From: Sphingomicrobium aestuariivivum
GTDB lineage: Bacteria; Pseudomonadota; Alphaproteobacteria; Sphingomonadales; Sphingomonadaceae
Reading direction: 5' to 3'
Length of the DNA stretch: 64,000 nucleotides
Assembly (NCBI RefSeq): GCF_024721585.1
Contig: NZ_CP102629.1
Span: forward strand, 1,488,001-1,552,000
The notes beneath the pieces are model-generated. The model worked only from the letters and a program-made list of their open reading frames with translations, was not told where the DNA came from and did no database searches. Every line of letters starts with the position of its first letter. Position 1 is the first letter of the stretch. A program made the translations under genes and the position numbers. This document shows positions 3,954 to 34,197 of this stretch, in pieces.

Positions 3954-4814
3954 CTAGATGGCTTCGCCCGACAGGCGCTGGCAGATCATGTCGAGCTGGT
4001 CGAGAGTACGATAGCCAAGCTGGACCTTGCCCCCGTTGGGACCGTGGCTGACATTCACCTTCAGCCCGAGCAGGTCGCCGAGCTGGCGCTCCAGCGCCGC
4101 GATATCGGGGTTTGACGGGCCCTTGGCACCCTTCTCGCCCTTGTCGGTCTTGAGGCTCCGTTCGCCACGGACCAGTGCTTCGGTCTGGCGGACCGAAAGC
4201 TCGTCGGCAATGACGTGATCGACGAGTTTCTCAGCCTCGGGATGACCGATCAGCGCGCGGGCATGGCCCATGCTGATACTGCCCTCGAGCAGCGCCTGCT
4301 GGACATGTTCAGGCAGGTCGAGAAGGCGGATAAGGTTGGCGACGTGGCTGCGCGACTTGCCGACCTTCTTGGCGATATCACCTTGGGAATGCTCGAAATT
4401 TTCAGCCAGCGCCGCATAGGCACGGGCTTCCTCGAGCGCGTTCAGGTCCTCGCGCTGCACATTTTCGATGATGGCCAGCTCGGCGACCGCGCTATCGTCA
4501 CTATCGCGCACGATGGCGGGGATCTCATGCAGCTGCGCGATCTGCGAGGCGCGCCAGCGACGCTCGCCGGCGATGATCTGGTAGCCGTCGCCCGCCGGGC
4601 GGACGAGGATGGGCTGAAGCACGCCGCGCGCCGAAATCGACTGGGCGAGCTCTTCGAGCGCATCCTTGTCGAAAAGGCGACGGGGCTGGTCGGGGTTGGG
4701 CGCGACCTTGTCCATCGGCAGCTTGCGGATTCCGGCCGTGTCGGGCCCCGTGCTACGCGGCGAATCCTCAAGAAGGGCGGAAAGCCCCCGACCCAGCCCA
4801 GCGGAACGCGCCAT
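3954..4814 (-). CDS. parB: Chromosome-partitioning protein ParB
   Basis: ParB is the CTP-dependent DNA clamp that loads at parS sites next to the origin and recruits ParA for chromosome segregation. The start at 4814 (MARSAGLGRGLSALL) is chosen because the frame upstream of it lies inside parA and lacks ParB similarity. The 286-residue protein has the N-terminal RGLSAL box, the CTP-binding region with GERRWRAS (about residues 90-97), the helix-turn-helix IAKKVGKSRSHVANLIRLL, and a C-terminal dimerisation segment ending in LDQLDMICQRLSG. The parA stop and parB start overlap by one base (TAATG). Two perfect parS sites sit 1.3 and 3.2 kb upstream. Confidence 0.96.
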   Translation of the reverse strand: MARSAGLGRGLSALLEDSPRSTGPDTAGIRKLPMDKVAPNPDQPRRLFDKDALEELAQSISARGVLQPILVRPAGDGYQIIAGERRWRASQIAQLHEIPAIVRDSDDSAVAELAIIENVQREDLNALEEARAYAALAENFEHSQGDIAKKVGKSRSHVANLIRLLDLPEHVQQALLEGSISMGHARALIGHPEAEKLVDHVIADELSVRQTEALVRGERSLKTDKGEKGAKGPSNPDIAALERQLGDLLGLKVNVSHGPNGGKVQLGYRTLDQLDMICQRLSGEAI

Positions 4815-5599
4815 TATGCGGCCTCCTTCGCAAGCGCCGGCAGGCGATCGATGATTTCGCGGGCAAGGCTGAGATAGGCAGCGCTTCCCGGGCATTTGAG
4901 ATCGTAAACCAGCGCGGGAATCCCGTGGCTCGGCGCTTCGGACACGCGCACGTTGCGCGGGATGATGGTGTTGAGCACCTGGTCACCGAGGCAGGCCCGC
5001 ACGTCGTCGGCGACATGCTGTGACAGCTTGTTGCGACGGTCGTACATGGTCAGCGCGATGCCGAGGATGGCGAGCTCGGGATTGATACCCGTGCGCACGC
5101 GCTCGACGGTTTTGAGAAGCTGCGAGAGGCCTTCCAGCGCGAAGAACTCGCACTGCAGCGGGACGATGAGTTGCTTTGCCGCCACCATCGCATTGACCGT
5201 GATCAGGCCGAGTGAGGGCGGGCAGTCGATAAGGCAGATGTCCCACTTGCCCTCCGGAAGCGCGGCGAACTTGCTGCGCAGGCGGGTCACGCGGTCTTCC
5301 ATGTCGACCATCTCGACCTCCGCGCCCGACAGGTCGACGGTGGCAGGAACGATGTCGAGACGCGGCACCTTGGTCGCGATTGCCAGTTCTTCCACGCCAT
5401 TGTCGCCGACAAGCAGGTCGTAGCTCGACCGGTCGCGCTCGTTCGACGCGATGCCGAGACCGGTGCTGGCATTGCCCTGCGGGTCGAGATCGACGAGCAG
5501 GACCTTCCACCCGATCGCGGCAAGCGCGGTAGCAAGGTTGATAGCGGTCGTGGTCTTGCCGACCCCGCCCTTCTGGTTGGCAATGGCGATGGTGATCAT
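4814..5599 (-). CDS. parA: Chromosome-partitioning ATPase ParA
   Basis: ParA is the Walker-type ATPase that forms a nucleoid-bound gradient and pulls ParB-parS complexes, and so the replicated origin, towards the cell pole. The 261-residue product begins MITIAIANQKGGVGKTTTA, with the deviant Walker A motif at residues 10-17 including the signature lysine. The segments VDLDPQGNASTGLG and CLIDCPPSLGLITVNAM are the usual A' and B motifs of the chromosomal ParA/Soj group. It is 4 bases overlapped with rsmG upstream (ATGA) and one base with parB downstream. The rsmG-parA-parB order is the standard alphaproteobacterial one. Confidence 0.97.
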   Translation of the reverse strand: MITIAIANQKGGVGKTTTAINLATALAAIGWKVLLVDLDPQGNASTGLGIASNERDRSSYDLLVGDNGVEELAIATKVPRLDIVPATVDLSGAEVEMVDMEDRVTRLRSKFAALPEGKWDICLIDCPPSLGLITVNAMVAAKQLIVPLQCEFFALEGLSQLLKTVERVRTGINPELAILGIALTMYDRRNKLSQHVADDVRACLGDQVLNTIIPRNVRVSEAPSHGIPALVYDLKCPGSAAYLSLAREIIDRLPALAKEAA

Positions 5600-6216
5600 C
5601 GGCGGCCCCTCCGCTTGGCCCGCTCGACCAGGACGATCTTCGCCTCGGGGTCGGTCAGGCTCTGTTCCACTCTTGCATCAAGGTGCCAGATGCGGCGCGC
5701 CTGTTCCAGTTCCTCGAACGCCTTTTTCCCCTTGGGGAGGACCCAGCGCGTTTTTTCTGTGGATAGATGGTGGGAAAGATCGAGAAACTTGGCGAGTGCC
5801 GCGACGGCTCGGCCGGTAATGACGTCCTGTTTTTCCGCGGCGGCGGCGGCTTTTCCCGCGATCACCGTGCAGTTGGGGATATCCAGCGCTGCAATCGTCT
5901 CGCGCAGAAAGGCGACTCGCAGGGCTCGCGGCTCGATCAGTGTTACCGGACCCTGGTGGAGCAGCGCGATGACGATACCGGGCAAGCCCGGGCCCGAGCC
6001 GATGTCGCACCAAGACGCGTCGAGCCGGTCGTCATGGCGCAAGAGCTGGGCGCCATCCAGAAGATGGCGGGTGAGAAGATCCTGCTCCGTCGCGCGGGAA
6101 ATCAAATTCTGGGTCTGGTTCGCCTCGAGCAGGCGCGCGGCAAACTGCTCGAGCCTCTCCACTGTTTCACGTGAAACATCGCGTTGGGCCGCTTGGGCGA
6201 AATCGTCAGCGTGCAT
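5596..6216 (-). CDS. rsmG: 16S rRNA (guanine527-N7)-methyltransferase RsmG
   Basis: RsmG (GidB) methylates G527 of 16S rRNA using S-adenosylmethionine. The start is placed at 6216 (MHADDFAQAAQRDVSRET), giving 206 residues, because the longer frame would run deep into mnmG and adds unrelated residues. The SAM-binding core is visible as DIGSGPGLPGIVIALL, followed by TLIEPRALRVAFLRE. The N-terminal VSRETVERLEQF segment is encoded by a perfect parS site (6163-6178), so the protein motif and the segregation signal share the same bases. The start overlaps the mnmG stop by 11 bases and the stop overlaps parA by 4, consistent with one operon. Confidence 0.95.
   Translation of the reverse strand: MHADDFAQAAQRDVSRETVERLEQFAARLLEANQTQNLISRATEQDLLTRHLLDGAQLLRHDDRLDASWCDIGSGPGLPGIVIALLHQGPVTLIEPRALRVAFLRETIAALDIPNCTVIAGKAAAAAEKQDVITGRAVAALAKFLDLSHHLSTEKTRWVLPKGKKAFEELEQARRIWHLDARVEQSLTDPEAKIVLVERAKRRGRR
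6163..6178. promoter_or_regulatory. parS site 1 (inside rsmG)
   Basis: The 16-bp perfect palindrome TGTTTCACGTGAAACA matches the canonical bacterial parS sequence bound by ParB at every position. It lies in the 5' coding part of rsmG, about 7 kb from the predicted origin and 1.3 kb upstream of the parB start. It should nucleate ParB clamps. The match is read directly; function follows from the known parS family. Confidence 0.93.
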
Positions 6217-8034: not shown

Positions 8035-8050
8035 TGTTTCACGTGAAACA
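8035..8050. promoter_or_regulatory. parS site 2 (between mnmE and mnmG)
   Basis: A second exact copy of TGTTTCACGTGAAACA occupies the gap after mnmE, directly abutting its stop codon (8051-8053). It is 1.9 kb from site 1 and about 5 kb from the predicted origin. Two identical 16-mers in the origin-proximal partition region are good evidence for a parS cluster. The site is fully intergenic, unlike site 1. Confidence 0.93.
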
Positions 8051-11962: not shown

Positions 11963-12985
11963 TTATCCCCGAACCCGTGCGATCATCGTCTCGACATTAG
12001 CGATGGGGGTCGACTTGTCGATCCCGTGGCCGAGATTGAAGATGTGGGGGCGGCCGGCAAAGGCGCTTTTCACCCGATCGACCGCCTGTTCGAGACGCTC
12101 ACCGCCGCCGATGAGGAGCAGCGGGTCGAGATTGCCTTGGACGGGAAGCCCCTCGGGCAGGTTCTCATGCGCCCAGACGGGATCGATGGTCTCGTCGACC
12201 CCGACCGCATCGACACCGGTCGCGCGCGCATATTCGGGGAGCTTTTCGCCTGCGCCCTTCGGAAAGCCGATGACGGGGACATCCGGGTGGCGCGCCTTGA
12301 ACGCGGTGACGATGCGCTTCGTGGGTTCGATCACCCAGGCACGGAATTCCTCGGGGGCAAGGCTGCCCGACCAGCTGTCGAACAGCTGGACCGCGTCGGC
12401 ACCGGCCTCGACCTGTCCCGACAGGTAATCGACGGTCATTTCGGCGATGGCCTCGATCAGCGCGGCGAAGCGTGTCCGCTCCGTGTAAGCCATCACGCGC
12501 GTCGCCATCTGGTCCTTCGAGCCTTGCCCCGCGACCATGTAGGTCGCGACGGTCCACGGGCTCCCTGCAAAGCCCAGGAGCGTGATGTGAGGCTCGAGCT
12601 GCGCTTTGACGAGGCGCACCGTCTCGTAGATCGGTTCGAGGCGCTCAGGGTGCCTCGTAAGGCTCTCCAGCGCATTCTCGTCGAGCGTGGGCTTCAGGCG
12701 CGGGCCTTCGCCGGCGACGAAGGTCAGGTCCTGCCCCAGCGCGTAAGGGATGATCAGGATGTCGGAGAAGAGGATCGCCCCCTCGAACGGGAAGCGGCGC
12801 AGCGGCTGCAAGGTGATCTCGGCCGCGGCCTCGGGGTCGTAGACGAGATCGAGGAAGCCACCCTTCTCGGCGCGCAGCTCGCGATATTCGGGAAGATAGC
12901 GTCCGGCCTGGCGCATCATCCAGGCGGGAGGCGGATCGTGACGCTCACCCTTGAGCACGCCAAGCAGGCGCTTGTTCGTTGGCAT
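11963..12985 (-). CDS. hemE: Uroporphyrinogen decarboxylase
   Basis: HemE decarboxylates the four acetate side chains of uroporphyrinogen III to give coproporphyrinogen III. The start at 12985 (MPTNKRLLGVLKGE) is preferred because a GAGAGGG ribosome-binding sequence sits upstream of it, whereas the upstream in-frame ATG at 13009 has none. The 340-residue product has the signature PPAWMMRQAGRYLPEYRE near residue 20, the catalytic aspartate region FSDILIIPYALGQ, and the GFAGSPWTVATYMVAG segment. hemE next to the origin is a conserved feature of Caulobacter-type alphaproteobacterial chromosomes. Confidence 0.97.
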   Translation of the reverse strand: MPTNKRLLGVLKGERHDPPPAWMMRQAGRYLPEYRELRAEKGGFLDLVYDPEAAAEITLQPLRRFPFEGAILFSDILIIPYALGQDLTFVAGEGPRLKPTLDENALESLTRHPERLEPIYETVRLVKAQLEPHITLLGFAGSPWTVATYMVAGQGSKDQMATRVMAYTERTRFAALIEAIAEMTVDYLSGQVEAGADAVQLFDSWSGSLAPEEFRAWVIEPTKRIVTAFKARHPDVPVIGFPKGAGEKLPEYARATGVDAVGVDETIDPVWAHENLPEGLPVQGNLDPLLLIGGGERLEQAVDRVKSAFAGRPHIFNLGHGIDKSTPIANVETMIARVRG

Positions 12986-13002
12986 GGACGCCACCCTCTC
13001 TT

Positions 13003-13033
13003 CTTTCATTCTTATATATATAGAAAAGGATTC
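13003..13033. other. AT-rich segment, candidate DNA unwinding element
   Basis: A run dominated by A and T, including TTATATATATAG at 13012-13023, stands out sharply from the surrounding high-GC sequence. It is located at the hemE edge of the predicted origin, next to the first GATTC. It could be the duplex-unwinding element, or it could simply hold the hemE promoter. Confidence 0.45.
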
Positions 13034-13150
13034 AGTAAGTGATTGGCCGCTTGGCAGCGGGATTTAGGCGGGGATACCGCTTTTGCCAACAGCGGAGGGT
13101 GATTCAGCGCTTCGATGATTCACTCTCTGAATCTCGCAGAATCATTCCCG

Positions 13151-13159
13151 CTATCCACA
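13151..13159 (+). promoter_or_regulatory. DnaA box candidate 1
   Basis: CTATCCACA differs from the consensus TTATCCACA at the first base only. It sits in the middle of the predicted origin, immediately followed by a GATTC site. Confidence 0.6.
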
Positions 13160-13182
13160 GGATTCATTTTCGGCGTGGCGGC

Positions 13183-13191
13183 TGTGGAAAG
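13183..13191 (-). promoter_or_regulatory. DnaA box candidate 2
   Basis: The reverse strand reads CTTTCCACA, two mismatches from TTATCCACA. It is oriented opposite to the other two boxes and 23 bases beyond box 1. Confidence 0.4.
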
Positions 13192-13274
13192 AACCTAGCA
13201 AAGATTCAGTAGATGCGGGGGCCGATGGCCCGATTGCAGCGGCTCACATTTTCGCGCTAGTCCCGACCACAGAC

Positions 13275-13283
13275 TTTTCCACA
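13275..13283 (+). promoter_or_regulatory. DnaA box candidate 3
   Basis: TTTTCCACA has one mismatch to TTATCCACA and is followed by the usual G. It lies 12 bases before the maf start, so it might also affect maf transcription. Confidence 0.5.
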
Positions 13284-13294
13284 GAACGGTGCCC

Positions 13295-13870
13295 ATGAGC
13301 CTCATCCTTGCCTCCACGAGCCCGATCAGGCGGGCCATGCTCGACCAGGCGGGCGTCACCTATGATGTGATGAAACCCGCGGTCGACGAGGATGTCATCA
13401 AGGCGCGCCATATGGGCGATGGCGAGACCTTGTCGGTGCGGCTAGCCGAAGCGAAGGCGCAATCGGTCGATGTCGAGGGCTATGCGATCGGCTCGGACAG
13501 CGTGGTGTCGGTCGAGGGCCGCCTCTTCGACAAACCCGCCACCCGCGAACAGGCGGCCGAGCATTTGCGCTTCTTCTCGGGCAAGGTGATGCAGTTGTCC
13601 TCCGCGGTGGCGCTCGCCAAGGGCGGCGCGGTCGACTGGATCCACGGCGAGAGCGCGCGGCTGCAGGTCCGCGACCTGTCGGACACCTTTATCGAGGAAT
13701 ATCTCGCCGCCGAATGGCCCGAGGTTTCCTATTGCGTCGGCGTCTTCCGGATGGAGGGGCCGGGGGTGAATTTGTTCGACAGTATCGAGGGCAGCTATTT
13801 CACCATCCTCGGCATGCCGCTCTTGCCGCTGCTCGGGGCGCTCAGGGAGCGGGGGTTGATGACGCGATGA
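13295..13870 (+). CDS. maf: Maf-family nucleotide pyrophosphatase
   Basis: Maf proteins hydrolyse non-canonical or excess nucleoside triphosphates to monophosphates and are linked to septum control in some bacteria. The ATG at 13295 is chosen (MSLILASTSPIRRAMLDQAG); a GTG two codons upstream is also possible. The 191-residue product has the N-terminal STSPIRR signature, the conserved acid region GSDSVVSVEGRLFDKP (about residues 66-81) and C-terminal GSYFTILGMPLLPLL. It is the first gene rightwards of the predicted origin, and its stop overlaps the aroE start by 4 bases. Confidence 0.9.
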   Translation: MSLILASTSPIRRAMLDQAGVTYDVMKPAVDEDVIKARHMGDGETLSVRLAEAKAQSVDVEGYAIGSDSVVSVEGRLFDKPATREQAAEHLRFFSGKVMQLSSAVALAKGGAVDWIHGESARLQVRDLSDTFIEEYLAAEWPEVSYCVGVFRMEGPGVNLFDSIEGSYFTILGMPLLPLLGALRERGLMTR

Positions 13871-32160: not shown

Positions 32161-33233
32161 GCGCCGACTCCCGCCGACAGGGTGGGCGTGTCGAGCATGC
32201 CGAATCCATAATGTTTGAGCCAACGAAGGTCGCCGTCGAAGAAGGCGCGCAAATCGTCCATGCCATATTTGAGCATGGCGAGGCGGTCGATGCCGCAGCC
32301 GAAGGCAAAGCCCTGCCATTCATCGGGATCGAGCCCGCAATTGGCGATGACCTTGGGATGGACCATCCCCGAACCCAGCACTTCCATCCAGCCTTCGGAG
32401 CCGCCGACGACGCGGCGGCCCTTCACCTCGGACCAGCCGACGTCGACCTCGGCCGAGGGCTCGGTGAAGGGAAAGTAGCTGGGGCGCAGGCGAAGCACGA
32501 TATCTTCGCGCTCGAAGAAAGCCTTGAGGAAGGTCTCGAGCGTCCACTTGAGGTGACCCATGTGGATGTTGCGATCGATGACGAGGCCCTCGACCTGGTG
32601 GAACATCGGCGTGTGGGTGGCATCGCTGTCGGAGCGATAGACGCGGCCCGGCGCGATGATGCGGATCGGCGGCTGCTCGCGCATCATGGTGCGGATCTGC
32701 ACCGGCGAGGTATGGGTGCGCAGCACCGGCGGGGCGCCCTCTTCGCCGGTCGCGACGTAGAAGGTGTCCTGCATCGCGCGGGCGGGGTGCGCCTCGGGAA
32801 TGTTGAGCGCTTCGAAATTGTGCCAGTCGTCCTCGATCTCGGGACCCTCGGCGACGGCAAAACCCATGTCGGCGAAAATCTCGGAGAGTTCGTCCATCAC
32901 CTGGCTGACCGGATGCACGCTGCCGAGCGGGGTCTGGTCGACGGGAAGCGACAGGTCGAGCTTCTCCGACGCGAGGCGGGCCTCGAGGGCTTGCGCTTCG
33001 AGCGCGTCCTTGCGCGCCTCGATGGCGTCGGCGACCGACTGGCGGGCGCCCTGGATCTTCGGGCCTTCGACCTTGCGGGTTTCGGGGTCCATCTTGCCGA
33101 GGGTCTTCAGCAGCTGGGTGATTTCCCCCTGCTTTCCGAGGGCTTCGACACGGATGGCGTCAAGCGCGGCGAGATCGCCGGCCTTGGCCACTTTGTCGCT
33201 GTAAAGCGTTACGAGTTCATCAGGTGCGGGCAT
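32157..33233 (-). CDS. pheS: Phenylalanine--tRNA ligase alpha subunit
   Basis: The catalytic subunit of PheRS. The start at 33233 ([20 protein letters not shown]) is chosen because upstream sequence is the divergent intergenic region. The 358-residue product has an N-terminal coiled-coil that contacts tRNA (about residues 1-85) and the class II catalytic core with [48 protein letters not shown] and [19 protein letters not shown] (motif 3). pheS and pheT overlap by 4 bases. Confidence 0.97.
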
Positions 33234-33294
33234 GGTTCTTCCTTCGCGGCCCGCCTTGCCGTCTGCAACCCGCATTTTCAAGGAGGTTAAGCCC

Positions 33295-34197
33295 ATGCAC
33301 TGGCCCGAACTGGACGCGGAAAGCGACGGATCGACCTGGGCGCGGCTGCATCTTGCCAGCCAGATGATCGGCAAGGTGAAGCTGGCGAACAGTCCGTGGA
33401 CCAATCACGGCTGGCACATCGCGTTGCAGCCGGCGGCCGAAGGGCTCGCCACCTTGCCGATCGATGCGGGCGGGCGGCGCTTCACGCTGGCGCTCGACCT
33501 GTGCAGCCATGCCATCGCGCTCAGCACCGACAATGGTGCGCGCGATGGGGTGCCGCTGGGCGAAGGGACGATTGCCGACATGCATGACGCGCTGGTCGCG
33601 ATGCTCGGGCGGCACGGGCTCCCGAACGATTTCAACGGCATGCCCAACGAGGTGGAGGATGCCGTGCCCTTTGCCAGTGACGATCGTCCGCTGCCCTATG
33701 ACGAGAATGCAGCGATGCGGTTGCGACAGGCGCTGGTGGCGATGCTGCCCGTGTTCGAGCGCTATCGCGCCGGCTTCATCGGCAAGTCCTCCCCGTTGCA
33801 TTTCTTCTGGGGCAGCTTCGATCTCGCCGTGACGCGCTTTTCGGGACGCGAGGCGCCGCGCCATCCGGGCGGCATCCCGGGGCTGCCCGACCGCATCACC
33901 CGCGAGGCCTATAGCCACGAGGTTTCGAGCGCCGGCTTCTGGGGTGGCGGGGCGGCGGGGGCGGACCCGATCTTCTATGCCTACGCCTATCCCTCGCCCG
34001 AGGGCTATGCGGACGCATCGCTGTCGGTCGGCGGCTGGTCGGACGAGCTGTCGGAATGGGTGCTGCCCTATGCCGAGGTGAGGGGCGCCGATGATCCCGA
34101 GGGGATGCTCGCCGCCTTTCTCGAGGAGAGTTATGCGCTGGCGGCGCGGCTGGGCGGATGGCCGGCGGGGCTGCTGCGCGCGCCGGTCGCGCCATAG
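33295..34197 (+). CDS. DUF5996 family protein
   Basis: A 300-residue cytosolic protein of the DUF5996 family, function unknown. A perfect AAGGAGG sits 8 bases before the ATG at 33295 ([23 protein letters not shown]). Family-type segments are [33 protein letters not shown] and [23 protein letters not shown]. It is divergent from pheS, 61 bases apart. Nothing in the context indicates a role. Confidence 0.82.

Follow-up and report, generated by a model that had tools for sequence, protein, structure and literature searches.

In oriC of the Dam-SeqA type, found in Escherichia coli and Vibrio, adenine-methyltransferase sites are dense across the DnaA-binding region. The locus described here is alike in that a dense cluster of adenine-methyltransferase sites lies over its DnaA-binding region, but the sites are those of CcrM (GANTC), and, according to a review, no SeqA homologue is present in alphaproteobacteria (PMC6090056). 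In Caulobacter crescentus, the origin, Cori, is located between hemE and COG1806 and has five CtrA sites (PMC1914354), and several GANTC sites have been reported both there and at the origins of close relatives (PMC3973325, citing Shaheen 2009). CcrM acts late in the C. crescentus cell cycle, and methylated GANTC is read by GcrA (PMC3973325, PMC3667746). Direct control of the main alphaproteobacterial origin by CcrM was assumed in a 2008 Caulobacter model, where a fully methylated origin was required (PMC2217572); the later result in C. crescentus was negative, with normal initiation observed by flow cytometry in cells without CcrM (PMC3973325). GANTC-rich origins and promoters, with a proposed methylation timing, are also described for repABC replicons such as pTiR10 and Agrobacterium ori2 (PMC6090056, PMC11514494). 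These are likewise GANTC-rich but, unlike the DnaA-dependent main chromosome considered here, they are RepC-dependent secondary replicons. When CcrM was depleted in Agrobacterium, ori2 was affected, and ori1 showed no obvious change (PMC11514494).

The locus analyzed here resembles Cori in that it adjoins hemE, has a cluster of weak DnaA boxes (two at one mismatch and one at two; five are reported in C. crescentus), and contains several GANTC sites. It differs from Cori in several respects: the COG1806/ppsR flank is missing; dnaA is about 0.98 Mb away; CtrA-type motifs are lacking here and in the other genus origins compared; and the central box in most genus genomes compared is of the type NGATTCACA, with a GANTC inside, as opposed to the C. 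crescentus G-box TGATCCACA (PMC4285127). Whereas GANTC in the origins of C. crescentus and close relatives are already known, searches of the open-licence PMC literature gave no account of sphingomonad origins enriched in GANTC, nor of a DnaA box that contains one, and to that extent both appear to be new. The crowding of GANTC may help to time DNA copying.

The hemE-maf region as a predicted origin

The window, i.e., the whole stretch of 64 kb that was analyzed, corresponds to positions 1488001-1552000 of a single-contig genome with a length of 2,345,960 bases. The region of interest is located at about 1.501 Mb. Among 10 loci found, the nearest named match to its HemE was from Sphingomicrobium astaxanthinifaciens (87%). 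The features of the region and its surroundings, in window coordinates, are as follows.

3954..4895, minus strand: parB (PF02195, PF17762, PF23552)
4814..5599, minus strand: parA (PF13614, E 7e-61)
6163..6178, no strand: parS, exact to a hand-entered consensus
8035..8050, no strand: parS, exact to a hand-entered consensus
11963..13009, minus strand: hemE (uroporphyrinogen decarboxylase; PF01208, E 3e-115), the left flank, shared with C. crescentus
13010..13294, no strand: hemE-maf intergenic region, predicted chromosomal origin (oriC), from divergent flanks, GC, skew, DnaA boxes, and parABS
13011..13027, no strand: AT-rich stretch in the sequence, possible unwinding element
13082..13092, plus strand: conserved element TTTGCCAACAG from the consensus of 30 genus genomes, no role assigned
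13151..13159, plus strand: central DnaA box CTATCCACA, one mismatch to TTATCCACA
13183..13191, minus strand: weaker DnaA-like box CTTTCCACA, two mismatches to TTATCCACA
13275..13283, plus strand: right DnaA box TTTTCCACA, one mismatch to TTATCCACA
13295..13870, plus strand: maf-like gene, right flank (PF02545, E 3.5e-39)

The first-pass annotation of this DNA had proposed a chromosomal origin between hemE and maf on the basis of outward-pointing flanking genes, parABS close by, three near-consensus DnaA boxes, and an AT-rich segment, and each of these elements was recovered. The flanking genes diverge, parB and parA were identified by Pfam matches, and together with the two exact parS sites they lie 5-9 kb to the left of the region. 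Two DnaA boxes contain one mismatch and the third contains two, and the AT-rich stretch at ca. 13011-13027 is A+T-rich in most genomes of the genus, as judged by eye from the alignment. The space between hemE and maf is 285 bp long, has a GC content of 0.52 versus 0.668 window-wide, and also contains the starts of two genes. The element TTTGCCAACAG is nearly invariant in the 30 genus genomes and weaker across the 104 rows of the genus and family alignment; in our strain, it faces a TTGGC located ca. 30 bp leftward.

GC skew was followed in a genome sample of 40 stretches of 20 kb each plus the window (864 kb, 37% of the genome). No sampled stretch between 0.31 and 1.39 Mb had a positive skew, and values between 1.43 and 1.48 Mb were near zero. 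From 1.50 Mb onward, past the contig ends and up to 0.25 Mb, negative values were limited to the stretches at 0.13, 1.54, and 2.17 Mb. This pattern places the switch within ca. 0.1 Mb of the hemE-maf region and no finer. The skew flip anticipated for an origin was observed near the region at the 0.1-Mb scale but not inside the window, where the skew is +0.024 on either side of the region.

The likeness to the Caulobacter origin, also put forward in the first-pass annotation, extends to the hemE flank but not to the second one, which is COG1806 in C. crescentus and maf here. No match to ppsR (COG1806, PF03618) was found in the whole genome, and the gene is absent from this place in all 30 genus genomes read, our own included, where hemE is followed by maf. 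Across the remaining family regions that were counted (74), ppsR is the gene next to hemE, and its absence in the genus is therefore probably a lineage loss. The dnaA gene is located at 0.517 Mb; a survey states that Sphingomonadales do not maintain proximity between dnaA and the origin (PMC8116508). The flank, sampled GC skew, parABS, and DnaA boxes support the call well, and we conclude that the hemE-maf region is very probably the DnaA-dependent chromosomal origin of this sphingomonad.

The GANTC cluster and its genomic setting

A scan of the sequence revealed seven GANTC sites between positions 13029 and 13207, exactly as stated in the first-pass annotation. None has a strand assigned.

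13029..13033: site 1 (GATTC)
13101..13105: site 2 (GATTC), left arm of an inverted repeat
13117..13121: site 3 (GATTC), inside the loop of the repeat
13129..13133: site 4 (GAATC), right arm of the repeat, 22 bp to the left of the central DnaA box, the most position-conserved site
13139..13143: site 5 (GAATC)
13161..13165: site 6 (GATTC), one base off the central DnaA box
13203..13207: site 7 (GATTC)

The expectation of 0.6-0.7 sites per 179 bp, initially derived from base composition, was of the right order, with dinucleotide shuffles yielding ca. 0.95. The actual count in the 64-kb window is 61 (ca. 0.17 per 179 bp) versus 337.9 in the shuffles, and the motif is therefore avoided about five-fold. 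Outside the cluster, no more than two GANTC were encountered per 179 bp counted from each site in the window. The inverted repeat was found as claimed (GATTCAG at 13101-13107, CTGAATC at 13127-13133, the loop between them containing the 13117 site), and its predicted fold had a z of -2.27, with 3 of 200 shuffles as good or better. Yet no retention of the repeat was seen, by eye, across the 30-genome genus alignment; it may therefore be a by-product of palindromic sites, and a structural role for it was rejected.

A simple codon-based gene caller, applied to the 864 kb sampled, returned 454 intergenic regions of at least 30 bp. GANTC density in called intergenic DNA was 1.85 per kb versus 0.59 per kb in the remainder of this 37% sample, and divergent intergenic regions were the richest class (2.24 per kb). 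The hemE-maf region had the highest number of sites (seven) among the 454 called regions. The Poisson probability of finding at least seven GANTC in 285 bp is 1.4e-6 at the called-intergenic mean density, and 2e-9 at the sampled genome average.

Two other clusters were observed in the sampled genome. Eight GANTC are found in 192 bp at genome positions 1487208-1487399 (L026 19208-19399), at a divergent pair of reading frames ca. 14 kb to the left of the origin and just outside the window. Seven are found in 165 bp at 1388370-1388534 (L025 8370-8534), beside TTAA-N7-TTAA motifs and upstream of a gene that, by eye, resembles that of a Flp-type pilin; this cluster looks like a CtrA/CcrM-regulated promoter. 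N is mixed in both clusters. The gene caller places part of both within genes, hence its lower counts there (five and six). The origin cluster is thus extreme but not unique.

The methyltransferase invoked in the first-pass annotation, CcrM, is indeed encoded in the genome. A 382-amino acid methyltransferase at genome positions 32602-33747 contains PF01555 and RAMA domains; its best NCBIfam model is that of CcrM (NF050803, 620 bits, below the strict cut-off of 830), and it matches the CcrM sequence of PDB 6pbd with an E of 4e-156. CcrM was found in all 99 family genomes searched, our own included. From its family, the enzyme is predicted to methylate the GANTC sites here. GcrA is present as well (PF07750, E 1e-36); in C. 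crescentus and in other alphaproteobacteria, its binding sites are methylated GANTC in promoters (PMC3667746). The main rival to an origin-linked function of the cluster is that the GANTC are GcrA/CcrM promoter elements that set cell-cycle expression of hemE and of the gene to its right, which is maf here and ppsR in relatives, with firing affected at most indirectly, via local transcription. The richness of divergent intergenic regions and the location of the other two clusters near gene starts, one of them upstream of the pilin-like gene beside TTAA-N7-TTAA, agree with promoter control. We nevertheless consider it somewhat unlikely: of the 55 divergent regions with a length of 150 bp or more, the hemE-maf region (which the caller sizes at 351 bp) was the only one to reach 20 per kb, enrichment in the genus persists despite the loss of ppsR there, and GANTC crowd the central DnaA box beyond an even spread (see below).

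On the scale of the chromosome, GANTC density falls from origin to terminus. In the 40 stretches and the window, the number of sites per 10 kb by quarter is 9.1, 6.4, 6.2, and 5.3 (Spearman -0.50, p 6e-4), while four control pentamers are flat, which suggests a chromosome-scale role. This gradient, and the presence of parS within 8 kb, would fit an explanation in which methylated sites serve another origin-linked task, as a segregation mark or a target of a sequestering protein, and DnaA binding is untouched. Such a task appears improbable to us, since alphaproteobacteria are without a SeqA homologue according to the review mentioned above (PMC6090056), and since it leaves the GANTC inside DnaA boxes unexplained.

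GANTC enrichment in related origins

Regions from hemE to the next gene were compared in 30 genomes of the genus (our own included), 74 other members of the family (67 plus 7), and 35 others of the class. The genus set comprised the best 30 of 61 HemE-bearing genomes by HemE match and was not a random draw; the family set included all but 27 of 97 HemE-bearing genomes; and the class set was based on 40 hand-picked genomes of 190 searched. Regions dropped before the counts were L007 (the same place as L064), L133 (no next gene found), and those with no ppsR/maf match (L010, L011, L105, L124, L125, L126, and L130).

Every one of the 30 genus regions, and every one of the 74 others from the family, contained more GANTC than the mean of its dinucleotide shuffles. 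The total was 179 versus 43 expected in the genus (ca. four-fold) and 370 versus 109 in the rest of the family (ca. 3.4-fold; 345 versus 98.5 in the 67 regions, and 25 versus 9.3 in the seven). In every group, including those of the class, GANTC ranked first of 24 pentamers of the same make-up (the runner-up in the genus reached 52), and in the genus and family six one-mismatch neighbor patterns were below expectation (0.41-0.89), while all four variants of N were enriched, 1.9- to 5.7-fold. In the stretch downstream, the density was 1.7 per kb versus 20 in these regions in the genus, and 2.6 versus 15 per kb in the family; in the seven-row family subset, the corresponding values were 6.6 and 11.3 per kb.

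The first-pass annotation had named absence of ccrM together with a lack of conservation among relatives as a refutation, and neither was observed: ccrM is present, and all 104 regions of the genus and family are enriched, with a variable number of sites (1 to 19). The range is 3-15 sites per region in the genus and 1-19 in the rest of the family, so density is kept more than positions. The densest origins read contain 19 GANTC in 346 bp (L049) and 15 in 316 bp (L075). At the other end, L064, which is the same as S. astaxanthinifaciens L007, has only three sites and is without the 13129 site. Taken as a sequence comparison, these results support the view that high GANTC density is a conserved, selected feature of sphingomonad origins.

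The notion that the cluster is a chance or base-composition artefact of AT-richer intergenic DNA in a GC-rich genome draws on the fact that intergenic DNA is generally richer in GANTC than genes. The dinucleotide shuffles, the 24 pentamers, and the one-mismatch neighbors all contradict it in 104 of 104 regions, and we consider it refuted on these controls and extremely unlikely.

Outside the family, enrichment was 1.8-fold in genomes with CcrM (n=19) and 1.6-fold in those without (n=16), i.e., there was no contrast, in sets that were small, hand-picked, and mostly drafts, and with regions that are presumed origins. For at least three of the CcrM-less genomes (G181, G339, and G341), CcrM is present in a genome of the same family, and its absence may therefore be a gap; G287, G289, and G318 were scored as CcrM-less by absence among the matches listed. 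The use of CcrM-less genomes as natural knock-outs was abandoned, with none among the 99 family genomes and no contrast outside the family.

The central DnaA box and a possible role in firing

In the genus alignment, the column of site 4 (13129) holds GANTC in 26 of 30 genomes (GAGTC in 20, GATTC in four, GAATC in two), and in other family members it does so in 52 of 74 regions (GAGTC in 39, GATTC in 13). When mapped on a tree of hemE DNA, N changes five times in the genus and the four fixed bases three, one, one, and three times. On the ppsR tree of the family, A changes 14 times versus eight for N, and the element at this position is therefore not cleanly GANTC. Conservation of position was set aside as a proof of GANTC, being supportive in the genus and not clean in the family.

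Another possibility is that GANTC is an incidental part of a longer conserved motif, such as a weak DnaA box with a GATTCA core, as here, or a GAGTCGC element, as in relatives. In our strain, GATTCA (on either strand) is present in six of the seven origin sites versus 42 of 598 GANTC elsewhere in the sample (p ca. 1e-6, for a pattern picked post hoc, after inspection of the data). In addition, conservation in the genus extends to the bases that adjoin the 13129 site on its right, and N of this site is never C (0 of 78 holders). Other family regions, however, use all four N (104 A, 90 C, 103 G, and 73 T), and GATTCA is not favored in the family (45 of 177 GATTC). The extended motif, striking in our own strain and not in the family, was thus retained as a minor and quite improbable rival.

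The CACA of the central DnaA box is invariant in all 30 genus genomes. In 19 of them, GANTC is found within the aligned box (17 read NGATTCACA and two NGACTCACA), these counts being genomes and not independent events, with at least four changes on the tree needed for GANTC in the box. Two of the 19 boxes (L069 and L089) read GACTCACA, where GANTC is kept and the DnaA consensus is departed from at position 4. G at position 2 is accompanied by T at position 5 in 19 of 19 cases, and with this combination the box holds GANTC. In 9 of the 11 boxes without G at position 2, position 5 is occupied by C, and in 4 of the 11, our strain with CTATCCACA among them, a single base separates the box from the start of a GANTC. 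Such sites within or next to the central box characterize the genus, as only 1 of 74 other family rows has one. When sites overlapping the box were excluded, GANTC within ca. 30 bp of it numbered 52 in 25 genus genomes, where 25 were expected, and 35 in the 19 family members whose box was recognised, where 19 were expected.

CtrA-type TTAA-N7-TTAA motifs, even with one mismatch allowed in one half, were found in 0 of 30 genus origin regions. In other family regions, an exact motif was present in 3 of 74 and a motif with one mismatch in 13 of 74.

The reading that we tentatively favor, at somewhat less than an even chance, is that the region serves a small Sphingomicrobium-like genome as its DnaA-dependent origin, that its GANTC density has been selected as a CcrM substrate, and that the sites tag the replication state at the origin. 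In such a scheme, selection would keep GANTC dense as substrates of CcrM, and firing of the origin would leave all seven sites hemimethylated. If CcrM activity is restricted to the late cycle, as it is in C. crescentus, the hemimethylated state would persist up to that point. For sites that lie within or abut DnaA boxes, this state might alter the loading of DnaA or of a competing protein, and altered DnaA loading might discourage a second firing. The methylation of the sites, the timing of CcrM, and the effects on DnaA and firing are all put forward here as predictions. The first-pass suggestion that methylation controls origin firing may therefore be correct, but we hold the mechanism as tentative because of the normal initiation in C. 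crescentus, the behavior of Agrobacterium ori1, and a class comparison that was of no help. Points against gating of firing by methylation are that enrichment outside the family is similar with or without CcrM, and that two clusters of seven to eight sites lie away from the origin.

A stronger version of the replication-state tag is that the sphingomonad main origin has swapped CtrA-based blocking for a CcrM-based lock. The dense cluster of GANTC, which in most of the Sphingomicrobium genomes compared would extend into the DnaA box itself (NGATTCACA), would make DnaA loading methylation-dependent and constitute a once-per-cycle device that arose independently of Dam/SeqA, perhaps also in the class family f39. 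We regard this version as doubtful. Still, if any origin in the class is gated by methylation, the strong family-wide enrichment, the absence of CtrA motifs from the 30 genus origins compared, and the sites inside the DnaA box make this lineage a good candidate, and the sequence supplies exact, testable sites.

GANTC-bearing DnaA boxes were also observed outside sphingomonads. Both f39 genomes read (L104 and L108) have DnaA-like boxes TGATTCACA/GGATTCACA with GANTC inside, two per origin, in origins with 16-19 GANTC per kb. Such a box is also present in the class regions L098, from a genome with CcrM, and L128, from one scored as being without it.
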